A DNA stretch of 35,487 bases from Rhodopila globiformis (GTDB taxonomy: Bacteria; Pseudomonadota; Alphaproteobacteria; Acetobacterales; Acetobacteraceae): NCBI RefSeq assembly GCF_002937115.1, contig NZ_NHRY01000058.1, forward strand, positions 1-35,487, read 5' to 3'. Position numbers and translations under genes: made by a program. Shown one piece after another: positions 8,083 through 29,700 of this stretch. How positions within the stretch are numbered: the stretch's first letter is position 1; every line of letters begins with the position of its first letter. The notes beneath the pieces are model-generated. The model was given only the letters and a program-made list of their open reading frames with translations, did not search any database and was not told the DNA's origin.

Positions 8083-8240
8083 CAGCCCGACTCCCTTGCA
8101 ATGTGAACAGGCAAGCTCGCTGTCGCGCACTTCCTGCGCCGCTCGGATGGCCTGGGCAGTTTGATACCACCTGCATGGTCTCGTCGCCGGCGCAGGGATC
8201 GGTCGGCGCCGCTTGCGCAAGAATGAATGAAGACGCTGCA

Positions 8241-9719: not shown

Positions 9720-9728
9720 TGAAACCTC

Positions 9729-12056
9729 CTACCGGGCACGCGCCGCTTGCAGGGCCTGCCAGACACGTTCGGGCGTCGCCGGCATATCAAGTTCCCGCAC
9801 GCCGGCTGGTTGCAGCGCGTTCATCACCGCGATCATGACGGCTGGCAGGGCGCCAACACAGCCGGCCTCGCCCGCGCCCTTGGCACCGAGCGGATTGCTG
9901 GGTGTGGGCACCGGATTGCTGACGATCCGGATATTGCACATCGTATCCGCGCGCGGCATGACATAATCCATGAAGCTGGCGGTCAGAAGCTGGCCGGAGC
10001 CGGGTTCATACACCACCTGCTCGCCCAGCACCTGACCGGCGCCCTGCGCCACGCCGCCGTGGATTTGTCCCGCCAGCGTCAGCGGATTGATGATTGTGCC
10101 GACATCATCAACGACCAGATAGGACAGCAGCGCAACGACACCCGTTTCGGGATCGATCTCCACCTCAGCGACATGGCAGCCGTTGGGGAAGGTGTCGCGC
10201 TTCGGCGCATAGGTGGCGTTTTCGTACAGTCCAGGCTCGACGCCGGGCGGAAGGCGGGCCGGCTGGAAGGCCGTCATCGCCACCTGTTTCAGCGTCACCC
10301 CGCGATCGGTTCCCGTCACGGAAAATGTTGCATTGGCAAATTCGATGTCGGCCTCGGCGGCTTCCAGCAGATGCGCGGCAATGCGCTTGCCCTTGGCGAT
10401 CACCTTGTCCGCCGCCAGCGTCAGCGCGGACCCGCCGCTGACCATGGAACGAGAGCCGTTTGATCCCATGCCGAACGCAACACGGTCGGTGTCGCCGTCG
10501 ATGAACTGCACCGCCGCCGGGTCGATGCCGAGCTTTTCGTGCAGGATCTGCTTGAACGACGTCTCGTGCCCCTGGCCGTGGGTCTTGGTGCCCAGGAACA
10601 TGATCGCCGTGCCGCTCGGGTTGAAACGAATCTCGGCATATTCCGGTGTCGGCCCCGCCGCCTGCTCGATGGCGTTGACGACCGCGATGCCGCGCAGCAG
10701 GCCGGCGCGGCACGATGCCTCCCGTCGTGCGGCGAAGCCGGCATAGTCGGCGGCTTCCAGGGCGAGATCCATGTTCTTGTCGAACGCGCCGCAGTCGTAA
10801 TATGGCCCGAGCGGTGCCTTGTAGGGAATTTTCTCTGGGGGAATGATGTTGCGCCGGCGCAGGGCGATCGGATCGATGTTCAGTTCTCGCGCGGCGTCTT
10901 CGACGATGCGCTCGATCAGGTAGGCTGCCTCCGGCCGCCCGGCGCCGCGATAGGGTGCGGTCGGGCTGGTGTTCGACAGCACCGCGTCGATGCTGACAAA
11001 GGCGGCGGGAATGTCATAGACGCCCGTTACAGTACCGATCTGGCCGAACGGAGTCAGCAACTGGCGGTCGGAGGCGATGTAGGCGCCGATGCTGGCAAAC
11101 ATGTGCAGGCGCAGCCCCAGGAATTTCCCGTCCTTGTCCAGCGCCAGTTCGATATCGCCGATATTGTCGCGGCCGTGCTCGTCGGCCAGCAGCACCTCGG
11201 ATCGCTCGCACTTCCATTTCACCGGACGACCGAGTTTCCGCGCCGCCCACAGTGTCAGGCGGTGATCGACATACTGCCAGCCTTTGGCGCCGAAGCCGCC
11301 GCCGACGTCACGGACCTGCACGCGGACGTGGCTTTCCGGCACCTTGAACACCATGTTCGCCAGCATGTTGCGCACGCGGTGCGGATAATTCACGTCGGCG
11401 AAGAGAGTGAAACGATCCTCGCCTTCGTCATAGGTGCCGATGGAGCCGCGCGGCTCCATGTACTGGGCGTGGACGCGGGTGATCACGTAGCGCCGGCGCA
11501 CCACGTGGGCGGCCCTGGCGAAGGCGGCGTCGGTGGCGGCGCGGTCGCCGCGTTCGGTCGTGTGGGAGATGTTGTCCGGGTTCTCGTCCCAGACGCGCGG
11601 GGAGTCCGGGCGGGCGGCGTCGGCAAGAGAGGTGACGGACGGCAGCGCCTCGTACCGTACATCCACCAGCTCCGCCGCGTCCTTCGCCTGGGCGAGCGTC
11701 TCCGCAACCACCATAGCAACGGTGTCGCCGACATAGCGCACCCGGTCGATCACGATCGCCGGGCGCTGTGGCGCGAACATCGGCGATCCGTCGCGCTTTT
11801 TCCGCGGCATCGCCGCCTTCGGCGTGGCGATCCCGTCGGCGGCGTAATCCTGCCCGGTATAGACCGCCGCCACGCCGGGCGCGTTGGCCGCCGCCGTCGT
11901 GTCGATGGAAACGATTTTGGCATGCGCGTGCGGCGAGCGGACGAACACGGCCCAAAGCTGATGCGGCAGGGTCAGGTCGTCCTGGAAATGGCCCTTGCCG
12001 GTCAGTAGCCTGCGGTCCTCGAACCGGCGCACCGGCTGGCCGACGCCGTACTTCAT
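9729..12056 (-). CDS. Molybdenum hydroxylase large subunit (CoxL/xanthine dehydrogenase family, form II-like)
   Basis: A 775-residue molybdopterin-binding subunit. It shows the cofactor motif GGGFGAK at 252-258, the active-site loop PYRGAGR at 368-374, and the catalytic Glu at about 730 in KGAGEAG. The AYRGAGR-type loop marks the form II group, which hydroxylates aldehydes or N-heteroaromatics, not the AYxCSFR loop of true CO dehydrogenase. Such enzymes normally need a 2Fe-2S small subunit and often an FAD subunit; neither is encoded in this window, so partners must be elsewhere or the enzyme is unusual. GAGGAG precedes the ATG. The hydratase gene ends 20 bases upstream and the HpaB-like gene begins nine bases downstream, which implies co-transcription and a shared pathway. 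Confidence 0.93.
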   Translation of the reverse strand: MKYGVGQPVRRFEDRRLLTGKGHFQDDLTLPHQLWAVFVRSPHAHAKIVSIDTTAAANAPGVAAVYTGQDYAADGIATPKAAMPRKKRDGSPMFAPQRPAIVIDRVRYVGDTVAMVVAETLAQAKDAAELVDVRYEALPSVTSLADAARPDSPRVWDENPDNISHTTERGDRAATDAAFARAAHVVRRRYVITRVHAQYMEPRGSIGTYDEGEDRFTLFADVNYPHRVRNMLANMVFKVPESHVRVQVRDVGGGFGAKGWQYVDHRLTLWAARKLGRPVKWKCERSEVLLADEHGRDNIGDIELALDKDGKFLGLRLHMFASIGAYIASDRQLLTPFGQIGTVTGVYDIPAAFVSIDAVLSNTSPTAPYRGAGRPEAAYLIERIVEDAARELNIDPIALRRRNIIPPEKIPYKAPLGPYYDCGAFDKNMDLALEAADYAGFAARREASCRAGLLRGIAVVNAIEQAAGPTPEYAEIRFNPSGTAIMFLGTKTHGQGHETSFKQILHEKLGIDPAAVQFIDGDTDRVAFGMGSNGSRSMVSGGSALTLAADKVIAKGKRIAAHLLEAAEADIEFANATFSVTGTDRGVTLKQVAMTAFQPARLPPGVEPGLYENATYAPKRDTFPNGCHVAEVEIDPETGVVALLSYLVVDDVGTIINPLTLAGQIHGGVAQGAGQVLGEQVVYEPGSGQLLTASFMDYVMPRADTMCNIRIVSNPVPTPSNPLGAKGAGEAGCVGALPAVMIAVMNALQPAGVRELDMPATPERVWQALQAARAR

Positions 12057-12076
12057 CGTGTCGTGCTCTCCTCGTT

Positions 12077-12880
12077 TCAGACGAACCGGACCGAGATCGA
12101 TCCGAACGAGCCGTAATCGACGTGGAACGTATCGCCGGCCCGCGCCTCCACCACGCCGGTGAAAGAACCGCCCAGCACGAACTGCCCCGGCTCCAGCGCG
12201 ATGTCGAACGGCGCCAGCTTGTTAGCCAGCCAGGCGACGCCATTCGCCGGGTGGTTCAGCACTGCCGCGGCGACGCCGGATTCCTCGATGACGTTGTTCC
12301 GATAGCACAACGCCGCCACCCAGCGCAGGTCCAGGTCCAGCGGGCGCATCGGCCGCCCGCCGACGATCAGTGCGGCGCAGCCGGCATTGTCGGCGATGCT
12401 GTCCAGCACGTTGCGCGGCTTGTCCGTTTCGGGGTCGATGCGGTGCGCCCGGTTGTCGACAATCTCCGCGGACGGCACCACGTATTCCGTGGCGCTCAGC
12501 ACGTCGAAGATCGTGCAGTTCGGGCCTTTCAGGCGCCGGCCGATGACAAAACCGATCTCGCACTCGAAACGAGGCTGGATGAAGCGGCTGACGGGGATTT
12601 CCGCGCCGTCGGTGTAGAACATGTCCTCCATCAAGGAACCGTAGTCCGGCTCGGTGATGTTCGCCTGCCGCTGCATTGCCCGCGACGTCAGGCCGATCTT
12701 GTGGCCTTTGATGCGGTTGCCTTCGGACAGCTTGATTTCGACCCAGCGGCGCTGCACCGCGTAAGCGTCCTCGATGGTGAAGCCGGGGTACTGCACGCTG
12801 GGCGGGCGGAACCGCTGGCGGGTCTTTTCGGCCTGGTGACAGGCGCGGGCGATCGAATCGATCGTGGTGGCATCAAGCAT
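12077..12880 (-). CDS. HpaH/MhpD-family hydratase or 4-oxalocrotonate decarboxylase
   Basis: A 267-residue enzyme of the family that contains 2-oxohepta-4-ene-1,7-dioate hydratase (HpaH/HpcG), 2-oxopent-4-enoate hydratase (MhpD) and 4-oxalocrotonate decarboxylase. GHKIGLTS at 59-66 and Glu106, Glu108 (FECEIG) and Glu139 (SAEIVDNR) correspond to the magnesium ligands described for this fold. The length is typical, and overall resemblance seems closest to HpaH. These enzymes act after meta-type ring cleavage. The gene begins 12 bases after the RidA stop and ends 20 bases before the molybdenum hydroxylase. Whether it hydrates or decarboxylates cannot be decided from motifs; the adjacent RidA makes the decarboxylase reading worth testing. 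Confidence 0.9.
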   Translation of the reverse strand: MLDATTIDSIARACHQAEKTRQRFRPPSVQYPGFTIEDAYAVQRRWVEIKLSEGNRIKGHKIGLTSRAMQRQANITEPDYGSLMEDMFYTDGAEIPVSRFIQPRFECEIGFVIGRRLKGPNCTIFDVLSATEYVVPSAEIVDNRAHRIDPETDKPRNVLDSIADNAGCAALIVGGRPMRPLDLDLRWVAALCYRNNVIEESGVAAAVLNHPANGVAWLANKLAPFDIALEPGQFVLGGSFTGVVEARAGDTFHVDYGSFGSISVRFV

Positions 12881-12892
12881 CGCGCCGCCGCC

Positions 12893-13279
12893 CTAGGACA
12901 GGACGGCGGTGAAGTCGGCCTGCACCAGCGCGCGGCTGTCGGGCGGCAGGGCCACGGTGTGCCGCGCGGGGCGTGACGCCGCGTCGGGAAACATCCTGGT
13001 CCACTCCGCGTTCAAGGCCGCGCGCTGGGTGGCGGGATCCTTGACCCAGAACGTCACCTTGATGATGTCGTCCACCGTGCCGCCGGCGGCCTCGATATCG
13101 TTGCGCAAGTTGGCGAACACGTTGGCCACCTGCTGCTCGAGCGTCGGCGGCATTTCCCTTGTGCCGGGATTGGCGCCGCCGATGACGCTCGACATGACGA
13201 TGTTGCCGATGCGGCAGGCGTTCGGGATCGGGTTCTCGTGCCGGGGCGTGGGGCTGTTGATGCTCTGACGCTTTGCCAT
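12893..13279 (-). CDS. RidA/YjgF-family protein, possible pathway deaminase
   Basis: A 128-residue RidA-family protein. The C-terminal half carries the family pattern, with VTFWVKDP in the middle and a conserved Arg at about 106 (ASRPARHTV) that binds the substrate carboxylate. RidA proteins hydrolyse reactive imines or enamines, and specialised members such as 2-aminomuconate deaminase work in aromatic pathways. The position usually held by a late catalytic Glu appears as Asp (VQADF), so activity may differ from housekeeping RidA. The ATG follows TAGGAAT, which overlaps the stop of the preceding VOC gene. Its location directly before a hydratase/decarboxylase supports a pathway-specific deaminase, but this is inference. 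Confidence 0.9.
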   Translation of the reverse strand: MAKRQSINSPTPRHENPIPNACRIGNIVMSSVIGGANPGTREMPPTLEQQVANVFANLRNDIEAAGGTVDDIIKVTFWVKDPATQRAALNAEWTRMFPDAASRPARHTVALPPDSRALVQADFTAVLS

Positions 13280-13289
13280 GGCCCGATTC

Positions 13290-13865
13290 CTATTGCGCCG
13301 TCTGGAAGACTGGCAGGCCCTCTACCCGATCCTCCAGCGCTTCCGGTCCTTCGGTCGGCACGGCTACGGCATGATTCAGCGCGGCGTCAATGTCGCCTTC
13401 CCAGACGTCGCGGGGCAGCTCGTATAACAGTTCGACGCCGTAACCGTTCGGGTCGTTGATATACAGGCTGTGCGTCATGCCGTGCTCGACGCGGCGGTTG
13501 AAGCGGATGTTGCGGCTTTGCAGATAGGCGAGCTGGCGCAGCCAGGCTTCCCGGTTCGGCAGCGTAATGGCGATATGGCCGATGGCCATCGGCATGCCGC
13601 TCATGGCCCAGTCGGCCGGCGGCGGCGGCAGGGCGGTGTTCTCGATCAGGGCGATGTCGTGGTGGTTCATCTTGCCGTCGTGGTCGCCACTGTAAAAGCG
13701 CATGCGTGGCGGGTTCGGCCGTGTCGGGCTCGCCTTCAGTTCGCCGACTTGCCTGAAGCCGAGAATCTCTGTCCAGAACTGGTGCGATTCGTCCAGGTTG
13801 CGGACATTCAGCACCAGGTGGTTCAGGCCGGACGGAGTGACGGGGCCGGTTTGGTTTCCAGACAT
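13290..13865 (-). CDS. VOC-family protein, probable extradiol ring-cleavage dioxygenase
   Basis: A 191-residue vicinal-oxygen-chelate protein with two beta-alpha-beta-beta-beta modules. Candidate metal ligands are His16 (LNHLVLNV), His97 (GHIAITL) and Glu145 (YGVELLYE), the His-His-Glu set of type I extradiol dioxygenases; the segment SLYINDPNGYGVEL resembles catechol 2,3-dioxygenases of the CatE group. The start was placed at MSGNQTG because AGGAGG lies five bases before that ATG; the longer open frame has no such site. It precedes RidA by ten bases. In this context it would open the ring of a catechol or similar product of the HpaB-type monooxygenase, but other VOC activities are possible. 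Confidence 0.85.
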   Translation of the reverse strand: MSGNQTGPVTPSGLNHLVLNVRNLDESHQFWTEILGFRQVGELKASPTRPNPPRMRFYSGDHDGKMNHHDIALIENTALPPPPADWAMSGMPMAIGHIAITLPNREAWLRQLAYLQSRNIRFNRRVEHGMTHSLYINDPNGYGVELLYELPRDVWEGDIDAALNHAVAVPTEGPEALEDRVEGLPVFQTAQ

Positions 13866-13959
13866 TCTTTCCTCCTGTTTAGCCGACTGCATTCCTGGCA
13901 GGCGCGTTGACACCACGCTACCCCGTTGGGGCGGCGTTCGTCCACTGGCAGGGAAAGCG

Positions 13960-14451
13960 CTAGAAAATTCCGGCAGCCAGCCCGCTGGCGAGGGCGGCGC
14001 CCAGATCGCGGCAGCGGCCGATGTCGTCCGGGCCGATGTGCTTGGGGGCCAGGATGGCCTCCGGCGTTTGAGCGTTGGTTCGCACGATCAACGGTTCGGC
14101 GACGGCGCGCAACCGCCATCCGGTGGCGATCCGGGCGATCTGCCGCGCGGCGCCTGTCCCGTCGCTGCCGGCGCAGATCAACATCGCGTAAGGGCGGCCG
14201 TTGATCCTGTCCAGTACGGGATAGTAGCTGCGGTCGAAGAAATCCTTCATGTGCCCGGCCATCGCCGCCAGATTTTCCGGTGTCGCAAAGATGTAGCCGT
14301 TGGCGGCCAGCACGTCCTCCGGCCCGGCCTCCGGGGCGGTGAGCAGCCGCACCGTCACCTCCGGCTCATCCGACGCGCCGGCGACGGCGGCCTGCGCCAT
14401 TGCCCGGGTGCCGCCCGTCAGGGAATGGAACACGATCAGCAGTGTCTTCAC
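13960..14451 (-). CDS. Flavodoxin-like NAD(P)H-dependent oxidoreductase
   Basis: A 163-residue flavodoxin-fold protein. It begins with a beta strand and phosphate-binding loop (FHSLTGGTRAMA), followed by the FATPENLAAMAGHMKDFFDRSYYP segment that packs against FMN in NADPH:FMN reductase and WrbA-like proteins. The start codon is GTG and overlaps the SSS transporter stop by four bases (GTGA), so translation is coupled. It may supply electrons or reduced flavin to the HpaB-type monooxygenase in the same run; HpaC reductases normally have a different fold, so this pairing is a hypothesis. A 94-base gap separates it from the VOC gene. Confidence 0.82.
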   Translation of the reverse strand: MKTLLIVFHSLTGGTRAMAQAAVAGASDEPEVTVRLLTAPEAGPEDVLAANGYIFATPENLAAMAGHMKDFFDRSYYPVLDRINGRPYAMLICAGSDGTGAARQIARIATGWRLRAVAEPLIVRTNAQTPEAILAPKHIGPDDIGRCRDLGAALASGLAAGIF

Positions 14452-15914
14452 CGAGCGTGCCGGGCGAGCGCCGTCCTCCGATACGTCAGGGCGCTGACGA
14501 TGCCGGTGACGAGGACATTCAATGCCAGCGCGACAATGCCGATGTTCAGGTCACGCAACGGACCAGGAAGGCCCGGCAGCAGCGTTGCGATGCCGGTATG
14601 GGCCAGGGATGTGGCGGCCACCGTGGCGACGCCGACGCAGATGCCGGCGAAGGCGCCTTCGCGCGTCACCGGATTGCGCGGCAGCAGGCTGGCCAGCAGC
14701 GACGGGAAAAGCTGGGTCACGAAGGCATAGCCCATCAGCAGCAGCGCAACGATCGTGCTGCCGCCGCGCACCGTGAACAGAACCGACACCAGCGCGATCA
14801 CCGGCACCAGGCCCTTTGCCAGATTCGATACCGTTACGTCCGTAATCTGCGGATGGACCGTCCGGACGATCGTGTTGGCCAGCAACGTGGCCGACGTCAT
14901 CAGGATCATCGATCCCGGCACCAGCGCTGTCAGAACGCCGGCCGCGCCGATCACGCCCACGAACCACGGATCGAACGTGGCGATCGACAGGCGAAGCAGC
15001 GACAGGTCGATGTCCGGTCCCTTCAGCCCGGGCACCTTCAGGATCGCGGCGAAGCCGACGAAGAACACGAACAGCAGGATCAACTGGTACAGCGGCAGCA
15101 ACGCCGCGTTGCGGCGGAACGCGCGTTCCTCCTTCGCGGTATACAGCGAGCCGAAGGTGTGCGGCCACATAAAGAAGCCAAGCGCGGTCAGCAGCACGGT
15201 CGAATCGAACCAGGTCAGGCTTTCGCCCTGCGGCGGCAACACCAGGAAGCCCGGTTTCGCCGCCTGGATGGCGGTGAACATCGCTCCGTAGCCGCCGTAG
15301 TAACGAATCGGCAAGTAGATTCCCAGGAACAGCACCACGGCCAGGATCAGGATATCCTTGACCACCGCCGTCCAGGCCGAGCCGTGCACGCCGGAAACCA
15401 TGACGTAAGTCGTTACGACAACAGCGCCAATCCAGATCGCCAGGGTGGGGGAGATTGTTCCATAAGCGGCCGCGTCGACGATGATGCCCAGGCCCTTGAG
15501 CTGCAGCACCAGGTACGGAACCAGCGCAACGATCCCGACGACCGCGACCAGAACCCCCAATGCCGGACTGTCGTATTTCCGCGCGAAGAAGTCCGGTTGC
15601 GCGATCAGCCGGTGCTGCCTGGCATAGCGCCATATCGGCGGCAGCAGCCAGTAGGACAGCACATAGGCCAGGCAGCCGTAGCTCAGGATATAGAAGGCCG
15701 GCGCGCCGTGCCCATAGGCGAAGCCGCTGCCACCCAGGAAGGTGAAGGTGGTGTAGATCTCGCCCGCCATCAGCACGAAGACCAGGACGGTGCCGAAGCC
15801 GCGGCCGCCGACGGTCCATTGCTCCAGGTTCATGTCCTTGCCGTGGCGGGCGCGCAGGCCCAGCAACAGGGCCGCAACGATCGTCAGGACGATGATGGCC
15901 AGGGCGGCGTTCAC
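14448..15914 (-). CDS. Sodium:solute symporter (SSS family)
   Basis: A 488-residue integral membrane protein with about 13 hydrophobic helices, typical of the sodium:solute symporter family. An N-terminal outward helix is followed by GGRGFGTVLVFVLMAGE and FTFLGGSGFAYGHG, matching the first broken helix and sodium-site region. It starts with GTG and overlaps the DUF3311 gene by four bases. The SSS-DUF3311 pair is a recurrent two-gene transporter unit, and here it heads the catabolic run, so it probably imports the pathway substrate, likely a carboxylate. Ligand specificity cannot be read from the sequence. Confidence 0.93.
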   Translation of the reverse strand: MNAALAIIVLTIVAALLLGLRARHGKDMNLEQWTVGGRGFGTVLVFVLMAGEIYTTFTFLGGSGFAYGHGAPAFYILSYGCLAYVLSYWLLPPIWRYARQHRLIAQPDFFARKYDSPALGVLVAVVGIVALVPYLVLQLKGLGIIVDAAAYGTISPTLAIWIGAVVVTTYVMVSGVHGSAWTAVVKDILILAVVLFLGIYLPIRYYGGYGAMFTAIQAAKPGFLVLPPQGESLTWFDSTVLLTALGFFMWPHTFGSLYTAKEERAFRRNAALLPLYQLILLFVFFVGFAAILKVPGLKGPDIDLSLLRLSIATFDPWFVGVIGAAGVLTALVPGSMILMTSATLLANTIVRTVHPQITDVTVSNLAKGLVPVIALVSVLFTVRGGSTIVALLLMGYAFVTQLFPSLLASLLPRNPVTREGAFAGICVGVATVAATSLAHTGIATLLPGLPGPLRDLNIGIVALALNVLVTGIVSALTYRRTALARHAR

Positions 15915-19465: not shown

Positions 19466-20268
19466 TGGTGCTCCTCCGCGGGCGCCGGCCTTGATTGTCC
19501 GTGCGGCGGCATCTTACGGTCAGGGCGTGCGCATGCCAAACCCGTAGCCGGTTACAGGTCTTTAACAGAAGTGCCGCGCTCCTGCGGGCAACTATTGATC
19601 GTCAACGGGCAGAGGCTTTCACCGCGTCCGTTTACTGGCACTACGACCAGAAGGGACCGGACGAGCAAGACAACAACCGGCATGGCGGCAGTTTCCAATC
19701 TGGTGATCATTCTCCGCACGAACCGCGACGAAATTTCCGCGTTCTGCGTCTGATCCACCGGCGGCCAGATGCGGGAGTCTGCTTCGACGTGCTTACCCTG
19801 ACGATCAACGGTGCCTGCGCGGTGCATCCCGATGGCGCCCGGACTCGTTGCGCTCGCCGCGTCCTGGCGGCCGTGGAATACGCACAGGATGGCCGCGCGC
19901 GAACCTACGACTGTCCATGCGAGCTCGCATGGCCATCCGTTACCATATCGGCATTACAGCCGCATGAAGCAACGCGATTGGCTTTCCCCCAGATCCAGGC
20001 GGCAATTACCCGACCAGGGCACAAGACTGACGGCGCCGAGACTGGCTGAAAAAGGAATCCTTCTGACGTATCTTTTGATCTCAACCGCTTTCGATAGCGC
20101 ACGTTATGGTGAGAACAGCGCGAGCGACGCACAAGAATTGCGTCGGAAGTTTAAGTACGGCAAGGTTCTTAGTGGAGGTAAACGCGCAGACAGAGTTTCA
20201 CTATTTAACAAAAGGCTTCATCAAATCCCTGGTATACGTCAGATGAACAAAGTGAATGCGCTTCATCA
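19466..20268. other. Long stretch without a recognisable gene, AT-richer right end
   Basis: These 803 bases separate divergent genes. Several frames are open on both strands (the longest about 184 codons at 19495-20049) but their translations have no family-like pattern. The part from about 20050 to 20268 is visibly richer in A and T than its surroundings. It should hold promoters for the dienelactone hydrolase gene and the large fusion gene. One open frame (19811-20272) overlaps the fusion start as ATGA, which could indicate coupling or chance. No repeats or RNA gene were recognised. Confidence 0.6.
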
Positions 20269-23200
20269 ATGAATGTAACAGACGAAACCATCTGCACTCC
20301 CAATTCCGTTGGCATCAGCCGCTCCGCGCTGACTGATTTCATCCGTTTCTGCGAGACGGCCACAGGCGTCCGCTTCCCCAATCAGGCGAATTTCCACCAC
20401 TTCTCCAGCACGGATTACCGTGCCTTCTGGCGCCTTTTCCTGGACTGGTCAAGGCTTGCCGCCGAGGGCGACCCCGAGCCGGTGTGCGACGGTGACGACG
20501 TGGAGCGCGCGCGGTTTTTCCCGAACCTGCGACTCAGTTACGCGGAAAACCTTCTCGCCGGGCCATCCGAGGCAACAGCCATAATCGCGCGGCACGGAGA
20601 CGGCAGGCGCGAGCAACTCAGCCGGGGTGAGCTGCGCGAGCGCGTGTTCCGGCTTGCCAGTGCGCTACAGCAGCTTGGCGTGCAGCCGGGCGACCGCGTG
20701 GCCTGCATCGCCCGCAACAACGCCGAGGCTGTGATCGCAGCCCTCGCCGCGGCCGTGATCGGCGGCATCTTCTCCAGCTGCGGCGCGGACATGGGCGCTT
20801 TCGCCATCCTGTCGCGCTTTGCGCCGCTCGCGCCCGTCGTGCTGTTTGCCGATACCCGGGCCGAGCCGTGGGATACCGGCGCACCACTGGCCGCGCGCGT
20901 GGCCGAGGTCGCGGCCGGGCTGGCATCGCTGCGCGCGATCGTGAGCTTCGATGAAGCACCGCTGCCGCCAACGGACGACATCGCAACGTATCGGCTGAAC
21001 GCGCTGATCGCGGCGGCAGACGGGGATGTCGCGTGGGAGCGGCGGCCATTCGGTCATCCACTGTTCGCAATGTTCTCGTCCGGCACAACCGGCGCTCCGA
21101 AATGCATCCTTCATGGCGCTGGCGGAACGTTGCTTGAGCATGTCAAAGAGCACCGGCTGCATTGCGATCTGCGCCCCGGCGAGCGGTTGTTCTACCAGAC
21201 GTCCTGCGGCTGGATGATGTGGAACTGGCAGCTCTCGGCCCTGGCCTCGGGAGTCGTGCTGGTCCTGTACGATGGCGCGCTGACCGCGCCGGAATCGCTG
21301 TGGCGGATCGTTGCCGAGGAACGCGTCTCGGTGTTCGGCACCAGCCCGGCTTATCTGCGCTTCTGCGAGGATGCCGGTCTTGTGCCGGGGCGCGACTTCG
21401 ACCTCGGGGCTCTGCGCTCGGTGCTTTCAACCGGATCGATCCTCTATCCGCGCCACTACGACTGGGTGGCGGAAAATGTCGGGCGAATCCCGCTGCAATC
21501 GATTTCCGGCGGAACCGACATCATCGGCTGCTTCGTGCTCGGCAGCCCCAACCTGCCGGTGCGCCGTGGCGAGGCGCAGTGCCGAAGCCTCGGCCTTGAC
21601 GTGCGCGCGCTGCCGCCTGCCGACGATCCCGCCTCGCCCGTTGGCGAGCTTGTCTGCGCCAATCCGTTTCCCTCCCGGCCGATCGGGCTTTGGAACGATG
21701 GCGATGGCACGCGTTTTCACGCCGCCTATTTCAGGCAGAACCCGGGCCTGTGGACGCACGGCGACCTGATCGAGTTCACCGCGGCGGGCGGCGCGCGGCT
21801 GCACGGGCGCTCGGACGGCGTGCTCAACATTCGCGGCGTGCGCGTCGGCCCGGCAGAGATCTACGCGGCGCTCGAGGATGTGCCCGAGATCGCGGAATCA
21901 ATGGCCGTCGAGCAGACCGCGGAAGACGAGCCAGGCGGGAGCCGCCTCGTGCTGCTAGTCCGGCTTCGGCCCGGTGCGGCACTGGATGCCGCTCTCGCAG
22001 CGCGGATACGGGCGGTGCTGCTCGAACGTGGCTCGGCCGCAATGGTTCCGGCGCGCATCGCCGACGTCAGCGCGTTGCCCGAGACGCATAACGGCAAGCG
22101 CTCGGAAGCCGCCGCGCGCGCCGCGGTCAACGGCCGATCGGCGCGCAACCGCGAGGCCCTGCGCAATCCGGAATGCCTGGAGGAGATCGCCGCCCATCCG
22201 GCGCTGCGTGCCCCGGCGCCGTCATGCGCTCCCGCAGCCGTCGACGACCTGCCCATGGACGATCGGCTTGATGCGGAACTGCAAGCACTCTGCCAGCACC
22301 TCCTGGGAATTTCCCCGATTGCGCCAACGGATAATTTGTTGGCCGCGGGGGGAAACTCGTTGGCCATGCTGACCCTGATCATGGAAATCGAGCGGCGGGC
22401 GAAACGTGAATTGCCGGTTGCAGTGCTGTTCGCGAAGCCGACGATCGAGGGGCTGGCCGCCCTGCTCCGCGGCACCGCGGCAGGCAATGAGACGCAAGGC
22501 GTTCATGTCCGGCCGATCGGCACGCATGACATCGAACCGATTTGCGCCCTGCTCCACCGCGTGGGATTCGAAGGGGACCAGATCGGACGGATCAGGCCGG
22601 AAATCTGGCGTAACCTGTTTGACTACAGCTGGCTGGAGCAAAAGCCCGATCGCGGCTTCGTGCTTGTCGACAACAACGACATCGTCGGCTTCCTGGGCAC
22701 AATCTATGCCAGACGGGAGATCAACGGCAAGGCCGGACTCACCTGCAACCTTTCATCCTGGTACGTGCAGCCTCGATACCGAGGCTGGGGTGCCGCCCTG
22801 TTGCACGCGGCGTTGCGCGATGCGAACGTCACGTACGTCAGCCTGACCCCGAACCCATTGTCGCAGCAGGTCTTCCAGATGCTCGGGTTCCAGGAACTGA
22901 GCGGCCCGATCCTTCTGCTGCCGCCGCTCCTGCATGCCGAAACGCTTCAACATGCGCGTCCGCGAATCAGTTTCGATCCAAACGATGTGCGCGCGTCACT
23001 GGATGATCGGCGGCGTTCCATATTCGACGACCATGCCCCTTACGACTGCCTGCAACTGGTCGTATGGGATGGCCCGGAGCAGGCCTATATCGTTGCCAAG
23101 CGCCGCGTCATGCCGGTGCCGAAGCTGGCGTCATGGCTCGGCAAGCGCATGACAATGCCGTGCTCCGAGATTCTGTATTGCAGCAATCCGCCGCTGCTGA

Positions 23201-23394
23201 ACCGTCACCTCGAGCGCGTGAAGCTTGCGATCCTGAGACGGCAACGAACCGTGGTTCTGCTCACCGCGGCACGGCTGTTCCCCCGGCGCCTGCGCGGCGC
23301 GACGCTGAAGCAGCACACCAGCTATCGCTCGCGCCTGTTTGACGCCAGCGAATTGGATCAGCTTTATTCAGAGCTTGTCCTCCTGCCGGTCTGA
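20269..23394 (+). CDS. Acetoacetyl-CoA synthetase-like adenylation / carrier protein / GNAT acyltransferase fusion
   Basis: A 1041-residue three-part fusion. Residues about 1-650 match acetoacetyl-CoA synthetase: LRLSYAENLL, the AMP-binding FSSGTTGAPK at 268-277, TSCGWMMWNWQ, SISGGTDIIG, GRSDGVLNIRGVRVG, and the C-terminal catalytic Lys610 in NGKRSE. Residues about 668-735 form an acyl/peptidyl carrier domain with the phosphopantetheine Ser at about 697 in GGNSL. Residues about 745-1041 are a GNAT-type acyltransferase: CNLSSWYVQPRYRGWGAAL (from about 825) contains the R-x-x-G-x-G acyl-CoA loop, followed by a longer tail. A stand-alone synthetase is about 650 residues. The logic is activation of a short acid (acetoacetate or 3-hydroxybutyrate-like), loading on the carrier, and transfer to an amine or sugar. 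No strong ribosome site precedes the ATG, so the start is provisional. Confidence 0.88.
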   Translation: MNVTDETICTPNSVGISRSALTDFIRFCETATGVRFPNQANFHHFSSTDYRAFWRLFLDWSRLAAEGDPEPVCDGDDVERARFFPNLRLSYAENLLAGPSEATAIIARHGDGRREQLSRGELRERVFRLASALQQLGVQPGDRVACIARNNAEAVIAALAAAVIGGIFSSCGADMGAFAILSRFAPLAPVVLFADTRAEPWDTGAPLAARVAEVAAGLASLRAIVSFDEAPLPPTDDIATYRLNALIAAADGDVAWERRPFGHPLFAMFSSGTTGAPKCILHGAGGTLLEHVKEHRLHCDLRPGERLFYQTSCGWMMWNWQLSALASGVVLVLYDGALTAPESLWRIVAEERVSVFGTSPAYLRFCEDAGLVPGRDFDLGALRSVLSTGSILYPRHYDWVAENVGRIPLQSISGGTDIIGCFVLGSPNLPVRRGEAQCRSLGLDVRALPPADDPASPVGELVCANPFPSRPIGLWNDGDGTRFHAAYFRQNPGLWTHGDLIEFTAAGGARLHGRSDGVLNIRGVRVGPAEIYAALEDVPEIAESMAVEQTAEDEPGGSRLVLLVRLRPGAALDAALAARIRAVLLERGSAAMVPARIADVSALPETHNGKRSEAAARAAVNGRSARNREALRNPECLEEIAAHPALRAPAPSCAPAAVDDLPMDDRLDAELQALCQHLLGISPIAPTDNLLAAGGNSLAMLTLIMEIERRAKRELPVAVLFAKPTIEGLAALLRGTAAGNETQGVHVRPIGTHDIEPICALLHRVGFEGDQIGRIRPEIWRNLFDYSWLEQKPDRGFVLVDNNDIVGFLGTIYARREINGKAGLTCNLSSWYVQPRYRGWGAALLHAALRDANVTYVSLTPNPLSQQVFQMLGFQELSGPILLLPPLLHAETLQHARPRISFDPNDVRASLDDRRRSIFDDHAPYDCLQLVVWDGPEQAYIVAKRRVMPVPKLASWLGKRMTMPCSEILYCSNPPLLNRHLERVKLAILRRQRTVVLLTAARLFPRRLRGATLKQHTSYRSRLFDASELDQLYSELVLLPV

Positions 23395-23501: not shown

Positions 23502-24674
23502 TCAACGGAGCGCCGCTGGTACCGGCCGCGTTACCGCCTGAATCAGGTTTCCATAGGCCGAGGCGCAGGCCGCCGTCGTGAATGCCCCCGCCCGGGCCTT
23601 GAGAACTTCAGGCGGCCAAAGCCCTCGCAGTTCCCCGACCCGGTCCATGGCTTTGGCCAGGGCGTCCGGCGCCTGCGTCGGAACCAGCAAGCCATAGCGC
23701 CCATTGGCGAGGATCTCGGACGGCCCATGCTCGCAATCCGTGGAAATCACCGGCGTGCCGCATCCCAGGGCCTCGACCAGTACGTTGCCAAATCCTTCCG
23801 ACCGCGAACTCAGGACAAATGCGTCCGCCCGACGGAACCAGGGCAAGGGATTGTCCTGGAAGCCCAGGAACTGCACGGCATCGCCCAGTCCAAGCGCGCG
23901 GCTTCGCTCTTCCAGCGCGTTACGCAGCGGTCCATCACCCAGGATCAGCAGGCGGGAAGGTTGATGCTGCCGGTGCATGGCCAGGGCACGCAGCAACGTT
24001 TCGTGATCTTTCAGCGCAACGAGCCGGCCGGCCGTAACGAACACGGGACCGGCCGGATCATCGAACCAGGGATGGCGGACCGCCGCGTTGCACCGGCTGA
24101 AGAACTGGGCGTCGACAATCCCGTTGTGGATCACGTGCACCTTGTCCGGCGGGACGTGCGCGATCCGGCGCATTTCACCGGCCAACCCTTCCGATACACA
24201 CACGGCCGCAGCGATATCGGGCGAAAGCAGCCGGTAAAGGCTGGGAATGTATCGATAGCTGCGGCTGAGGCCTTCCGTGTACCGGGAAGACAGGGCGTTG
24301 TGCTGGCAGATGATGACCGGCGTCCGCGTGCCCGACAACCGGCTGGCAACAAGCGCGGCGACGTTGTTATGGTCGAGGTTCGACACCAATACGTCTGGCC
24401 GCGCCTGCCGCAGGAAGCGGGCAAGGCGGGAAATATCCTGCAAGGTGCGGCGACTCGCCAGATCCACGACCGCCACGCCGGGCGGCACCGCAGGGGAAAA
24501 CGCGCCGCTGAACTGATGCAGCACCAGCGTGATGGCCCAGCCGGACGCCTGCAATGTCTCGGCCAGCGTCAGGATTTGCCGCTCGACGCCGCCCGAGGCC
24601 AGGTCGCGATTGTAGATGGCGACCGACGTGCGCCGCGTGTGGCAGCTTGCTGATCCCACGAGGTCTGCGTCCAT
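23502..24674 (-). CDS. GT4-family glycosyltransferase
   Basis: A 390-residue GT-B fold retaining glycosyltransferase. The N-terminal donor/acceptor loop appears as LASGGVERQI, the C-terminal half has TAGRLVALKDHETLL and ILGDGPLR, and the E-x7-E nucleotide-sugar motif is SEGFGNVLVE (Glu293 and Glu301). It would transfer a sugar from a nucleotide donor to a glycan or lipid at the cytoplasmic face. No membrane helix is present. The ATG at 24674 was preferred because the upstream 29 codons look non-conserved, but no strong ribosome site marks either start. It is convergent with the acyl-activating fusion across 107 bases, suggesting a glycan-modification pair. The sugar is unknown. Confidence 0.9.
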   Translation of the reverse strand: MDADLVGSASCHTRRTSVAIYNRDLASGGVERQILTLAETLQASGWAITLVLHQFSGAFSPAVPPGVAVVDLASRRTLQDISRLARFLRQARPDVLVSNLDHNNVAALVASRLSGTRTPVIICQHNALSSRYTEGLSRSYRYIPSLYRLLSPDIAAAVCVSEGLAGEMRRIAHVPPDKVHVIHNGIVDAQFFSRCNAAVRHPWFDDPAGPVFVTAGRLVALKDHETLLRALAMHRQHQPSRLLILGDGPLRNALEERSRALGLGDAVQFLGFQDNPLPWFRRADAFVLSSRSEGFGNVLVEALGCGTPVISTDCEHGPSEILANGRYGLLVPTQAPDALAKAMDRVGELRGLWPPEVLKARAGAFTTAACASAYGNLIQAVTRPVPAALR

Positions 24675-25500
24675 GCCAGTCCCAACTTCCACTTGCCAAT
24701 ACTTCAAAACATTGACCTGACAGGACGACCTCCGATCAGGCAGGGCGGCTTCCGACGACATAGCCGCCTGTAGGGCAGCCGGAAACCCTTGAAACCGGCA
24801 GAATCCCAGCGCGGCACGTAATCGTGCTTACCGGAACCCATCGCTGGCCAATGAGTTTCCGGCGAAATATGATTGCCGCTATCCCCTGTAATCAACTGCT
24901 GCCGATATGGTGTCATGGCGTGGAACGGGAGCATGAGGAAGTGGGGGCGGCGCGGCAGCCCGGCCGGACAGCCGAGCCTACAGGTTACGACAACGCCACA
25001 TTGGCACGCCGCCACCACAACGAATTTCACCTGTTTCGCCGGGCTGAACCTGCCTGGGCGTTAAAGCAACGACGGCCGTTACGACCTCATCATACCGGGC
25101 GGAGGCCCGGAGCCTGTGTTCCTGCTTCAACACCCAGGGCGCTGAACCCGGCTTTCGCGCCGCCGCAGAGATGCCGGCGAAAACGGCATCAACAGCCTTC
25201 TTGGCCGCGCCCTGCCGCATATTGGTCAACGCCGCGCGAAACGCCGCCTGGACGGTCGTGGCAGGGTCATTCCCTGCCTCCGGCTCAGGATGCCTTGCAG
25301 GGAAGCGCCGACGACCCTCAATATGATCGTCGAGCGGCCCGTCCCGGACTTGCCATTGCAGCCGGTTGACTCTAACCGAACCGGCTGGGGAGGATCGGCC
25401 ATCCCGAAGCAGTGGCAAAAATCATGGCGGCAAGCCTTCCGGCTCGGGCACCGCGCGTTGGTATCGACGCCCGAGGCATCAATGGCAAGGGTTATCGCAG
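24675..25500. other. 826-base stretch without a supportable gene
   Basis: Open frames on both strands (for example 24978-25418 minus and 24824-25369 plus) give proline- and arginine-rich translations without family patterns. The minus frame has one helix-like run near 25130-25270, so a decayed gene is possible. A short plus frame ends in a TGA that overlaps the helicase GTG by four bases (25501-25504), which looks like translational coupling to a tiny or truncated upstream frame. An 8-bp inverted repeat, agccggtt at 25360-25367 and aaccggct at 25379-25386, is present. No promoter or RNA was recognised. Confidence 0.5.
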
Positions 25501-28500
25501 GTGACTGAAACGCTTGTTACCGAGAATCTATGGAAGGCGTACCAGGACCTGCCGCCGGGCCCGCGCACCGTGCTACGGGTGAAGGCCCTGGTCGTCACCG
25601 TCACCACCAAGACCGCTTTCCTGGAGTGCCTGAACCGCGGCGGCGTGCGCACACCAGAGGGCAAGAGCTGGACCAGCGCAGTGGCCAACCCGGCGCTGGA
25701 CGTCCTGCAGAAACATTCCCTGCTCACCGCCGATCTGGCCTGCGTGCCGGCACTGCTGCACCCGGTGGCCATGGACGCCGCCGCCGCGCCGGAGGCCGAA
25801 CGATTGTTCGACGCGGCGCGGCGGTTCTTCTCGCCGTCGCCCGCCGGCCTCGGCTACAGCTCGCCGATGCGGCGCATGCTTGGCGACAGCGAACGGCTGC
25901 TGCTGGCGCGCCTCGCTATTTATGCCAACGACCCGGATGGGTTCGCCCACCAGCGCACGCAGTCCGGCATTTACCTGCCGGGAGCGGACGAACCGTTCAT
26001 GCGGTCGCTCGGCCGCATGCTGGCCCGGGTGGACTTCACGCCCGCCTGGCTCGACAGCCGCGCCCCGGTGCTGCAGGCCGCGCTGCTGGAAAGCCGGCTC
26101 GAGGCGTTCATGGCCGGCGATCTCGCCATCCCGGGCGTTCCCGCGCTGATCGACCGCTATCGCGATCGGCAGGACCAGCCGGAATTCGCGCCGATCCTTC
26201 CGGTGCTGCTCACGCAGGCAATCGTCGGGCTGCGCCTCGACGAAGCCCGGACGCTGCTGGCCCGGCTGCAGGCCGACGCGCCCCAGCCCAAGCCGGCCCA
26301 CCAGGAAATTGCCGCCACCCTGCACTTCCTCGCCGGCGAGAATGCCGAGGCGATCGGCCTCTACCGCGCCGCGCTCAAGCTGCGCCGGAAGGCCGCCAGC
26401 AAGCGCAAGCTGTTCGTCGATGGCATGCACGGCCTGTTCTTCCTGATGGCCCTGCTGCGCGCCAGCGACCCCGCGCTGTATCCCGAAATTCAGGCCGGGC
26501 TCAATATGCTGCCGCTTACAGACCGCCCGTATTCCTCGGCCTGGCCGGGACTGCAGACACTGCTGTGGCTGGCGCAGGGGATGGAGGGCAAGGCACGCGA
26601 GCAGGTGCGCGCGATGAAGGGTGTCATCTCGGAAGACCCGCTCGCCGATGCCGTCTGGACGCTCGCCGCGCACGCCGTCGATCCGGACAACACGCGGCAG
26701 CGCGCGCCCGCGCTTTGGAAGCGTTTCGACTTGATACAGGGCGTGCTCGTCCTGCCTGCCCGCATGTATGCCGAGGCTCTCGCCGAAGCGGACCCGGCAC
26801 CCGATCGGTATGCCGCATACCTCAAGGCCACGGCCGCCGGGATTGGCGTGGAATTCACGCATCTGCTGCGCCTGACCCAGCCGTGGGAGCGGGCGCTGGA
26901 GACCCTCGACACACTGCTGTTCGCCGATGGGGCAAAGCCCGGAGCGGAGCCGGCCGCCCCGACCAAGCGCCTCGCCTGGTTCGTCGATCCCGTGACTCTG
27001 AACATCGAGGTGGCCGAGCAGGCCGCGAGAGGCCGCGACGGCTGGTCGGATGGGCGCGTGGTCGCCATGAAGCGGCTCTACGAGCAGGACCCGCGCCTGG
27101 ACTACCTGACCGACCAGGACCGCCGGGCGCTGCGCGGCATCCGCCGTGAACGCTACGGCGGCTGGTATGACAACGAGTATTCCTACGATTTCGACGCGGT
27201 GCGCGTCCTGCCTCTGCTGGTCGGCCACCCGGCGGTGTTCGACGCGCGGCGGCGGCACCAGCCGATGGAACTGGTCGCCTATCCGGTCGAGCTGGTGGTG
27301 ACCGAGCAGCGCGGCGGGGTCCGCATCGCGCTGTCGCACACCGCCAAGGAGCCCACCGTGTTCCTGGAGGCGGAGGCGCCGCATCGCTACCGGGTGATCG
27401 TGCTGACCGAACGCCTGCTGGCGGTGCAGCAGATCGTCGGGCCGCGCGGCCTGGTCGTGCCCAGGGACGGGCGGGACCAGGTGGTGGAGATGGTGCGCAA
27501 GGCCAACCCGATGCTGCCGATCCGCGCCGAAATCGACGCGGTCGAGGCGGACGCGCGCGAGGGCATCCCCACCCCGGTCGTGCAACTGGTGCCGGACGGC
27601 GATCCCGCCGCCGGCGGCAGGCTGAAGGTCACCCTGCTGGTGCGGCCGTTCGGCGCCGACGGCCCGGCCTACATCGCCGGGCTCGGCGGCCACTCGGTGC
27701 TGGCGGTCATCGGCGGCGAGCAGGTGCGCGTCCGCCGCGACATCGACGCCGAGCTGGCCGCCCGCCGCGCTCTGGTCGCTGCCTGTCCGACGCTGGAGTC
27801 GGTCGGCGCCGCGCAGGCGCACGAGGTGACGCTGGAGGGGCTGGAACCCTGCCTCGACGCGCTGATGGAATTGCAGGCGCATCCCGAACTGGCCGTTGTC
27901 GAGTGGCCGGAGGGCCGGAAGTTCTCCGTTGGCGTCGTCGATCCCAGGAAGCTGCGCTTCAAGGTCCGGCAGGTGCGCGACTGGTTCGCCGTCAGCGGCA
28001 AGGTGCAGGTGGCCGAGGACGACGTGCTGGAAATGCGCTTCCTGCTCGATCGGCTGGACCGCGCGCAGGGGCGCTTCGTGCCGCTCGACAACGGGCAGTT
28101 CGTCGCGCTGACCCAGCGGCTGCAGTCGCAGCTGCGGCAGCTGGCGGCGGTGTCCGAGCCGGACAAGGGGGAGCAACGCGTCCCGGCGCTCGGCGCCGCC
28201 GCCGTGGACGGGCTGCTGGAGGAAGCCGGGCAGGTCGATGCCGATCCCGCCTGGCGGCAGCAGGTCACGCGGGTGCGCGAGGCGGGCGACTGGACTCCGT
28301 CGATACCATCGGCGCTTCAGGCCGAGCTGCGCGACTACCAGGAGGAGGGGTTCATCTGGCTGGCACGGCTCGCCCGGCTGGACGCGGGGGCCTGCCTCGC
28401 CGACGACATGGGCCTGGGCAAGACGGTGCAGGCGATCGCGCTGATGCTGCACCGCGCCGCCGAGGGGCCGTGCCTGGTGGTGGCGCCGACCTCGGTGGTG

Positions 28501-29700
28501 CCGAACTGGGCCAGCGAGATCGCGCGGTTCGCGCCGACGCTGACGGTCCACCGGCTCGCCACCGCGCCGGATCGGCAGGCGCTGGTGGACGGGCTCGGGC
28601 CGCGCGACGTGCTGCTGGTCAGCTACGGCCTGCTGCCGCAGGAGGAGGCGCTGCTGACCGGGCGCGCCTGGCAGATGGCGGTGCTGGACGAGGCGCAGGC
28701 GATCAAGAATGCCGAAACCCGGCGCGCGCAGGTGATCCACGGCTTGCAGGCGCGGTTCCGGCTGGCGCTGACCGGGACGCCGGTGGAGAACGACCTCGAC
28801 GAGCTGTGGAGCCTGTTCTCGTTCGTGACGCCGGGGCTGCTCGGGTCGCGCGACAAGTTCCAGCGGCGCTTCGCCGGGCCGATCGAGCGCGACCGCGACC
28901 CGGCGGCGCGGACGGCGCTGCGGACGCTGCTGCGGCCGTTCCTGCTGCGGCGCACCAAGGCGGCGGTGCTGAGCGAGCTGCCGCCGCGCACCGAGCAGAC
29001 CATGTTCGTCGAGATGGAGCCGGAGGAGCGCGCGTTCTACGAGACGCTGCGGCAGCAGGCGCTGGCGGCGATTGCCGCGCTGGACGACACGCCCGGGGGA
29101 CAGCGGAAGATCCATATCCTGGCCGAGATCACCCGGCTGCGGCGGGCCTGCTGCAACCCGGCGCTGATCGACGCCAAAGCCGCGGTGCCGAGCGCCAAGC
29201 TGGCGGCGTTCCTCGACCTGGTGGACGAGCTGCGTGCCAGCCGTCACCGGGCGCTGGTGTTCAGCCAGTTCGTCGGGCACCTGGCGCTGGTGCGGGCGGC
29301 GCTGGACGCGCGGGGCGTGAGCTACCAGTACCTCGACGGCAGCACCCCGGCGGCGGATCGGGAGCGCCGGGTGGCGGCGTTCCAGGCCGGGGAGGGCGAG
29401 CTGTTCCTGATCAGCCTGCGGGCCGGTGGCACCGGGCTGAACCTGACCGCCGCCGACTATGTGGTGCATCTGGATCCGTGGTGGAATCCGGCGGTGGAGG
29501 ACCAGGCGTCCGACCGCGCGCATCGCATCGGCCAGACCCGTCCGGTGACGATCTACCGGCTGGTTATGCAGGACAGTATCGAGGAGCGCATCGTTGCGCT
29601 GCACCGCGACAAGCGGGCATTGGCCTCGGAACTGCTGGAAGGCGCCGACGTGGCCGGGCGGCTGACCGAGGAGCAGTTGCTTGAGTTGCTGCAGGCGTAA
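25501..29700 (+). CDS. SNF2-family DNA-dependent ATPase/helicase with large N-terminal region
   Basis: A 1399-residue protein whose C-terminal third is a SNF2 motor. Walker A is DDMGLGKT (Lys974), Walker B is LDEAQAIKN (Asp1063), then TGTPVENDLDELWSLFSF, LRRTKAAVLSELP, FSQFVGHL, SLRAGGTGLNLT, DPWWNPAVEDQ and HRIGQTRP at 1341-1348. Such ATPases translocate on double-stranded DNA and remodel protein-DNA complexes. The roughly 950 residues before the motor are not a recognised domain; residues about 60-500 look alpha-helical and repeat-like. The GTG at 25501 (after CAAGGG) was chosen because the codons before it are not protein-like. It is apparently a single-gene unit. No restriction, methylase or nuclease gene is adjacent, so a defence role is not supported. 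Confidence 0.93.
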   Translation: MTETLVTENLWKAYQDLPPGPRTVLRVKALVVTVTTKTAFLECLNRGGVRTPEGKSWTSAVANPALDVLQKHSLLTADLACVPALLHPVAMDAAAAPEAERLFDAARRFFSPSPAGLGYSSPMRRMLGDSERLLLARLAIYANDPDGFAHQRTQSGIYLPGADEPFMRSLGRMLARVDFTPAWLDSRAPVLQAALLESRLEAFMAGDLAIPGVPALIDRYRDRQDQPEFAPILPVLLTQAIVGLRLDEARTLLARLQADAPQPKPAHQEIAATLHFLAGENAEAIGLYRAALKLRRKAASKRKLFVDGMHGLFFLMALLRASDPALYPEIQAGLNMLPLTDRPYSSAWPGLQTLLWLAQGMEGKAREQVRAMKGVISEDPLADAVWTLAAHAVDPDNTRQRAPALWKRFDLIQGVLVLPARMYAEALAEADPAPDRYAAYLKATAAGIGVEFTHLLRLTQPWERALETLDTLLFADGAKPGAEPAAPTKRLAWFVDPVTLNIEVAEQAARGRDGWSDGRVVAMKRLYEQDPRLDYLTDQDRRALRGIRRERYGGWYDNEYSYDFDAVRVLPLLVGHPAVFDARRRHQPMELVAYPVELVVTEQRGGVRIALSHTAKEPTVFLEAEAPHRYRVIVLTERLLAVQQIVGPRGLVVPRDGRDQVVEMVRKANPMLPIRAEIDAVEADAREGIPTPVVQLVPDGDPAAGGRLKVTLLVRPFGADGPAYIAGLGGHSVLAVIGGEQVRVRRDIDAELAARRALVAACPTLESVGAAQAHEVTLEGLEPCLDALMELQAHPELAVVEWPEGRKFSVGVVDPRKLRFKVRQVRDWFAVSGKVQVAEDDVLEMRFLLDRLDRAQGRFVPLDNGQFVALTQRLQSQLRQLAAVSEPDKGEQRVPALGAAAVDGLLEEAGQVDADPAWRQQVTRVREAGDWTPSIPSALQAELRDYQEEGFIWLARLARLDAGACLADDMGLGKTVQAIALMLHRAAEGPCLVVAPTSVVPNWASEIARFAPTLTVHRLATAPDRQALVDGLGPRDVLLVSYGLLPQEEALLTGRAWQMAVLDEAQAIKNAETRRAQVIHGLQARFRLALTGTPVENDLDELWSLFSFVTPGLLGSRDKFQRRFAGPIERDRDPAARTALRTLLRPFLLRRTKAAVLSELPPRTEQTMFVEMEPEERAFYETLRQQALAAIAALDDTPGGQRKIHILAEITRLRRACCNPALIDAKAAVPSAKLAAFLDLVDELRASRHRALVFSQFVGHLALVRAALDARGVSYQYLDGSTPAADRERRVAAFQAGEGELFLISLRAGGTGLNLTAADYVVHLDPWWNPAVEDQASDRAHRIGQTRPVTIYRLVMQDSIEERIVALHRDKRALASELLEGADVAGRLTEEQLLELLQA

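Follow-up and report, generated by a model that had tools for sequence, protein, structure and literature searches.

An acetoacetyl-CoA synthetase-type adenylation domain fused to a carrier and a two-lobed GNAT domain in Rhodopila globiformis: a putative carrier-dependent N-acyltransferase

The stretch of DNA analysed here (the window; 35,487 nucleotides) is one entire contig (C58, NZ_NHRY01000058.1) of the 7.2-Mb assembly of Rhodopila globiformis. It contains a gene, at positions 20269 to 23394 of the forward strand, which is one open frame with an ATG start. The encoded protein joins an adenylation domain of the acetoacetyl-CoA synthetase (AACS) type to a carrier domain and a GCN5-related N-acetyltransferase (GNAT) domain. 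The gene and its parts are as follows.

20269..23394, + strand: whole gene, AACS-type adenylation domain - carrier - GNAT, 1041 aa (Pfam, NCBIfam)
20269..22233, + strand: AACS-type adenylation domain, residues 1-655, with GWMMWNW at 314-320, STG at 387-389 and SGGTD at 413-417
22021..22023, + strand: residue 585 (Leu), aligned with the Arg for the CoA 3'-phosphate (Acs Arg584) (alignment)
22096..22098, + strand: Lys610, the presumed catalytic Lys, present in 30/30 AACS-carrier proteins and 87/87 ordinary AACS
22276..22467, + strand: carrier (PP-binding) domain, residues 670-733 (Pfam)
22357..22359, + strand: Ser697, the presumed phosphopantetheine site, Ser in 30/30 AACS-carrier proteins
22489..22923, + strand: N-terminal lobe of the GNAT, residues 741-885 (boundary by eye), with the RYRGWG loop at 836-841
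22924..23391, + strand: C-terminal lobe, residues 886-1041, for which Pfam has no family in the window protein

Pfam finds four families in the protein, in the order AMP-binding (residues 99-428, E 5.9e-37), AMP-binding_C (533-610, E 4.2e-5), PP-binding (670-733, E 1.4e-11) and Acetyltransf_1 (780-874, E 5.7e-6), all four above their curated cut-offs. AMP-binding_C barely passes (24.8 bits against 24.5), Acetyltransf_1 scores 27 against 20.7, and Acetyltransf_7 lies under its cut-off (20.8 against 27). The NCBIfam name of the protein is acetoacetate--CoA ligase, and the AACS equivalog TIGR01217 scores 614.8 bits against a cut-off of 520.9. That prediction, of a single polypeptide with AACS-like, carrier and GNAT domains, is confirmed, and the motifs it listed are where it placed them: FSSGTTGAPK (269-278), GRSDG (513-517), Lys610, GGNSL (694-698, with Ser697) and an R-x-x-G-x-G loop, here RYRGWG. 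The domain search that had been named beforehand as a check detected both the carrier around Ser697 and the GNAT. The protein has an AMP-binding domain followed by a PP-binding domain with its conserved Ser, as non-ribosomal peptide synthetase (NRPS)-like adenylation-carrier proteins do, and it has Acetyltransf_1 together with a Q/R-x-x-G-x-G/A loop, as members of the GNAT superfamily do.

The same three-domain order, for which a listing of genomes had been suggested, is common to 20 unbroken proteins that we aligned (window included), which shows that it is beyond chance. Ser697 and Lys610 are kept in all 20. We searched for the fused gene with the carrier-GNAT part (residues 640-1041) and for the AACS-carrier chassis with residues 1-740; because the genome search evaluates just a few candidates in each genome, all counts are minimum values. 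Fused genes that match almost the full query were found in at least 2 of 385 genomes of the class (window, G280) and, within the window's family, in at least 4 of 299 genomes (window, G1065, G1149, G1197). A sample of 398 genomes from the phylum gave the window alone, whereas 17 of 265 Bradyrhizobium genomes gave 19 places between them. The unbroken relatives match the window protein at 46-52% over carrier-GNAT. Fifteen of the 19 Bradyrhizobium places are single unbroken AACS-carrier-GNAT frames, in 15 genomes; the remaining four are L206, with another type of ligase, two places in G659 that are split over frames, and G473, where the frame begins at query residue 217. Two more Bradyrhizobium places gave partial matches only (G601, and G424 with a stop). 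The chassis is present in at least 21 of the 265 Bradyrhizobium genomes, and five more match it at only 34-41% with frames of 663-738 aa that look like ordinary AACS. A search of viral contigs gave no relatives, and among plasmids no record covered 80% of the full protein. Several copies of the AACS-carrier gene (L011, L194, L195, L208, L212 and L213) are split, shortened or remnant, with assembly errors possible; given these copies, the gene may often be lost.

In order to compare the adenylation domain with its nearest kin we used 87 ordinary AACS (79 of the best 80 loci from one search and 8 from another), a set that was not drawn at random, together with 30 AACS-carrier proteins, of which 20 are of the GNAT type and 10 are not; a first comparison used 24. 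Trp315-Met316-Met317, Thr388, Gly414 and Lys610 are identical across both sets. Basic residues are not: an Arg or Lys is found at position 585 in 86/87 ordinary AACS and 0/30 AACS-carrier proteins, at 361 in 85/87 and 0/30, at 605 in 83/87 and 0/30, at 591 in 85/87 and 0/30 (His in 2) and at 203 in 86/87 and 4/30. Likewise, His592 is present in 87/87 and 4/30, and Gly522, found in 86/87 ordinary AACS, is Arg in 29/30 AACS-carrier proteins; an IRG-type sequence is usual around this position in NRPS adenylation domains. All 87 ordinary AACS frames end at most 12 residues past the match. In a tree that used 29 of the 87, a branch with support 100/100 has the 24 AACS-carrier proteins together on the same side. 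Residue 585 aligns with the residue that we take to be Arg584 in Acs numbering.

Judged by these sequence comparisons, the AACS-carrier adenylation domain is an AACS by descent that lacks the CoA-contact feature. Like AACS (TIGR01217, PDB 4wd1) it scores above the equivalog cut-off and keeps the acid-pocket residues and Lys610; unlike AACS it is fused to a carrier and an acyltransferase and has lost, wholly or mostly, the Arg584-type CoA contact along with four more Arg/Lys positions that are conserved in AACS. Pocket residues that are kept and conserved basic residues, including the Arg584 contact, that are lost fit a loading of the carrier rather than of CoA. Acetate had been named beside acetoacetate and 3-hydroxybutyrate as a candidate acid. 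It looks the least likely of the three, because the AACS type has Gly in the place of Acs Trp414.

The front end is joined to more than one kind of last domain. In the 20 unbroken proteins it is a GNAT; in others it is a thioesterase, an AAC(3)-like domain or a hexapeptide acyltransferase. The hexapeptide-repeat type is seen in four Bradyrhizobium proteins (L217 by PDB search, best E 7e-10; L215, L216 and L218 alike by eye). The matches of L217 include WxcM-like, QdtC, VioB and perosamine N-acetyltransferase, and some are O-acetyltransferases. In a fifth Bradyrhizobium protein, L214, the last domain is AAC(3)-like (best E 3e-10, with FrbF among the PDB matches). Between them, the matches of the two replacements include sugar and aminoglycoside N-acetyltransferases. 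L009, a Cupriavidus plasmid protein, is AACS-carrier-thioesterase (best E 8e-21, PDB search), L010 (Caballeronia) ends in a thioesterase by eye, and three proteins of the window's family (L242-L244) are of the thioesterase type by full-length similarity to L009.

In the tree the five Bradyrhizobium non-GNAT proteins lie among GNAT forms, in a seven-row clade (the five and two GNAT rows) with support 97/98; the fork below the clade is open. This place in the tree suggests that the GNAT was replaced in these five proteins. Additionally, a remnant resembling the start of the GNAT (GPDDxEPVCRFLEE-like) follows the carrier in 5/5 of them and scores above the best of 200 shuffles, part of the score coming from the shared linker. 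The same shuffle test gave no such remnant in the thioesterase-type L009 and L010. The carrier-GNAT pair also occurs with another partner: in L206 (9561-12455) a GNAT 52% identical and a carrier 44% identical to those of the window lie behind a PRK08162-type acyl-CoA synthetase, and the GNAT part gets no Pfam call. Directly beside the AACS-carrier-hexapeptide gene of L215 there is an adenylation - carrier - thioesterase protein of another type (L215:5307-8168).

The original prediction needs one refinement, in the extent of the GNAT region. The fold is present, but the conserved region does not end near residue 900; it reaches the end of the protein, and His922 in the C-terminal lobe is invariant in 42/42 family members, with Asp1030 and Glu1035 nearly invariant. 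The alignment kept 42 of 56 candidates (53 plus L223, L224 and L155). Left out were fused-gene pieces (L194, L195, L208), remnants (L212, L213), a stand-alone copy of L194, duplicate loci (L175, L176, L113, L178, L222) and loci taken as near-copies (L118, L119, L122); L114/L152, one locus, was set aside as a short match, and L155, a short match too, was kept. Arg838 of the RYRGWG loop is also invariant in 42/42, and the loop Gly is not kept in all stand-alone members. Acetyltransf_1 matches 19 of the 42 and Acetyltransf_9 matches 14 (E up to 0.01). NCBIfam has no good name for the family formed by the C-terminal 300 residues. The N-terminal lobe is a GNAT: among PDB sequences the family profile picked up ordinary GNATs, and more weakly also N-myristoyltransferases. 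The C-terminal part gave no sequence match to solved chains below E 0.8.

Members of this family that stand alone were found in several settings. On an S. meliloti plasmid there is a run of GNAT - AMP ligase - pyridoxal phosphate-dependent decarboxylase (in two frames) - acyl carrier protein (ACP) - GT2 - polysaccharide deacetylase. In Paludibaculum a HAD-IIIC protein adjoins the GNAT, and a deacetylase and glycosyltransferases are present as well. In Bradyrhizobium there is a run deacetylase - GNAT - AMP-ligase (L184/L222), and in L180, L183 and L186 the GNAT follows a class II tRNA-synthetase-like protein, which we take to be perhaps an amino acid:carrier-protein ligase; a literature search on such a ligase gave no paper. 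A locus of the window's genus (L155:469-5999) reads E1 - lipoyl E2 - ACP-like - a fusion of a deacetylase-like part and GNAT. Its deacetylase-like part was identified by eye (Pfam gave the frame no family) and its ACP is just under the Pfam cut-off (20.2 against 20.8). This gene order would suit an acyl transfer in which a 2-oxoacid dehydrogenase supplies the ACP. In L270 and L275, from the window's family, the GNAT frame matches the deacetylase-like part and an ACP-like gene adjoins.

We compared the neighbours of 40 of 43 stand-alone loci (hand-picked from hit lists, mostly one per genome, the three seed-giving loci left out) with those of 59 of 79 ordinary-AACS loci (L032-L110), namely those of at least 14 kb, by BLAST with seeds, counting genes within 5 kb. 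A deacetylase-like gene was found at 12/40 stand-alone loci against 0/59, a HAD-IIIC-like gene at 6/40 against 0/59, any carrier or charging enzyme (AMP ligases included) at 15/40 against 6/59, and any polysaccharide-type gene at 17/40 against 5/59. The p values (6e-6 to 3e-3) are post hoc because the stand-alone loci were hand-picked. A further stand-alone copy lies in an operon of L206 (2456-7166) with a homoserine O-succinyltransferase-like gene, a class IV aminotransferase and a Cys/Met-metabolism enzyme; L194 and L207 have genes partly similar to this operon, which presumably resembles the rhizobitoxine cluster.

Domains, residue changes, distribution and the exchange of the last domain are observed; from them we infer the following substrates, reaction and order of steps for the window protein. 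The AACS-type domain would adenylate acetoacetate or a near relative such as 3-hydroxybutyrate, the conserved AACS acid pocket pointing to an acid of this kind. The acyl group would then pass to the phosphopantetheine on Ser697 of the built-in carrier and not to free CoA, as the lost CoA contact and the fused carrier suggest. Finally, the two-lobed GNAT would move it from the carrier to an acceptor amine, most likely that of an amino sugar in a surface or secreted polysaccharide or glycoconjugate; the guide to this acceptor is the GNAT kin, together with the replacing domains. We give this complete scheme, a single-protein NRPS-like acyl transfer machine, about an even chance. Loading of the carrier followed by acyl transfer, which the original prediction had raised, we consider probable: by comparison it is the best reading of a kept pocket, a lost CoA-linked residue, a carrier Ser in 30/30 proteins and an exchanged last-domain slot. 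If this holds, an amino sugar is a reasonably likely acceptor. That guess is helped by the stand-alone kin beside deacetylases and by the sugar- and aminoglycoside-type replacing domains, and is set back by the 18 of 24 fused loci that have no polysaccharide-type neighbour.

The scheme has relatives among known systems. Ebony, an insect protein, consists of an adenylation domain for an amino acid (beta-alanine), a carrier and a GNAT-fold condensing domain. The window protein has the same domain order and may resemble it in joining a carrier-bound acid to an amine; it differs in its AACS-type adenylation domain, and we found no sequence kinship of its GNAT part to the solved Ebony chain. An Ebony structure is present in the PDB, and no Ebony chain was among the PDB sequence matches of the GNAT part or of the family profile. 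Among NRPS-like enzymes with adenylation domain, carrier and thioesterase, the Cupriavidus relative is AACS - carrier - thioesterase and the Caballeronia one looks alike, where the window protein has a GNAT instead. NodB/NodA-type systems deacetylate and reacylate amino sugars. Some stand-alone GNAT kin resemble them in lying with polysaccharide deacetylases, acyl carrier proteins and ligases, whereas the window protein has ligase, carrier and transferase in one polypeptide and no deacetylase was found beside its gene. A literature search in one open-access library, partly judged by titles, found no paper on the AACS-carrier fusion or on the GNAT family, which does not imply absence from print.

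Several observations weigh against an amino sugar-acylating machine. We scored the neighbours of 24 fused loci (three with split or shortened genes, one, L206, with the other ligase type; some loci are short). A polysaccharide-type gene lies within 8 kb at only six of them (window, L196, L202, L204, L205, L241). Three of the six (L196, L202 and L204) are syntenic with one another, and two (the window and L196) are positive by construction, as they supplied seed sequences. BLAST with the seeds used showed no deacetylase beside any of the 24. At 25/40 stand-alone loci there is no carrier or charging gene. The window genome has one PF01648 match, of AcpS type by eye, so that priming of Ser697 would rest on AcpS or an unfound enzyme; three fused-gene relatives in the family also have one match each. 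In the 16 genomes searched besides the window's, two or three matches were found in 7 of 10 other fused-gene genomes and two in one of three same-genus genomes. The structure predicted for residues 733-1041 from a two-sequence input (window and L031) has a mean predicted local distance difference test score of 43, too poor for use. The presumed equivalence of residue 585 with Acs Arg584 comes from the alignment. Arg584 contacts the CoA 3'-phosphate according to PMC10455477, which also quotes one study in which Arg584 variants stayed active with a 7-8-fold higher Km for CoA. This retained activity means that loss of the Arg584-type residue alone need not stop the use of CoA.

The scarcity of polysaccharide-type neighbours is what would be expected of a one-gene pathway, in which the GNAT joins the carrier-loaded acid to a free amine (an amino acid, polyamine or biogenic amine) to give a diffusible N-acetoacetyl or N-3-hydroxybutyryl metabolite and no polysaccharide. 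Ebony itself, with an adenylation domain, a carrier and a GNAT-like condensing domain, sets the precedent, and the stand-alone kin also occur in operons with amino-acid enzymes. We nevertheless think this unlikely, given that the stand-alone kin favour deacetylase and polysaccharide settings in comparison with the AACS control, that the replacing domains match sugar and aminoglycoside acetyltransferases, and that the C-terminal part has no sequence match to a solved chain below E 0.8, the profile reaching ordinary GNATs and, weakly, N-myristoyltransferases. If instead the acyl group went to a sugar hydroxyl, giving for example a 3-hydroxybutyrate or acetoacetate ester of an exopolysaccharide, the O-acetyltransferases among the matches of the hexapeptide replacement would fit, and rhizobial exopolysaccharides can bear 3-hydroxybutyrate esters. 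Deacetylases next to the GNAT kin, and an AAC(3)-like domain as replacement, indicate amines, and we consider such an ester highly improbable.

The NCBIfam name would suit an acetoacetate-CoA ligase with a normal role in the metabolism of ketones or polyhydroxybutyrate, switched off by its own GNAT through acetylation of Lys610, in the manner of Pat but in cis. PMC8007912 describes acetylation of AACS at Lys617 by S. lividans PatA, which has a GNAT domain. Such self-acetylation is difficult to reconcile with the loss of the CoA-contact residue and the gain of a carrier, with the exchange of the GNAT for hexapeptide or AAC(3)-like domains behind an AACS part that is kept, with the carrier-GNAT pair behind a different ligase in L206, and with the stand-alone kin in polysaccharide loci; it appears improbable. 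Readings other than carrier-dependent acylation of an amino sugar and these three alternatives have a small probability between them.

Returning to acylation of an amino sugar through the carrier, it is possible, at somewhat less than an even chance, that an AACS of primary metabolism was turned into a dedicated carrier-loading module. This module would be a plug-in platform for acyltransferases of unrelated folds or a thioesterase, through which amino sugars would receive a C4 keto or hydroxy acid. The two-lobed GNAT would then represent a family, so far without a name, of N-acyltransferases that depend on a carrier and are served by several kinds of charging enzyme. If carrier-dependent acylation is right, a group of genes annotated 'acetoacetate--CoA ligase' has another function, and the acyl compounds made by it have gone unnoticed. 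The swapping of unrelated acyltransferases behind a single loading module, with a piece of the former domain still at the junction, would be a natural case of domain engineering, open to reading and reuse. The scheme also gives a testable function to a GNAT family without a good NCBIfam name.

The window gene seems monocistronic. A small frame (19811-20272) overlaps its start by four bases and was taken as spurious rather than as a real upstream gene, having no family match and an odd make-up. Downstream by 107 bases, and convergent with the gene, there is a GT4-type glycosyltransferase (23502..24761, - strand), linked to it by position alone. No neighbour is common to all fused genes, and several groups are syntenic among themselves. 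Around L196 Pfam finds a chain-length protein, a priming sugar transferase, an export protein and a sugar-nucleotide epimerase. An AMP ligase and an ACP lie near the fused gene in L198, L199 and L241 (Bradyrhizobium and the window's family; L241:3229-11237), and in L199 and L241 there is also a luciferase-like monooxygenase, named by eye.

Elsewhere in the window, positions 25366-29700 encode a 1444-aa SNF2 helicase whose first ~890 residues have no Pfam or NCBIfam match. Positions 6988-15914 hold a purine nucleoside permease, an HpaB-type hydroxylase, a molybdopterin hydroxylase subunit, an FAA hydrolase, a RidA-like protein and a sodium-solute symporter, a cluster that looks like an N-heterocycle breakdown locus.

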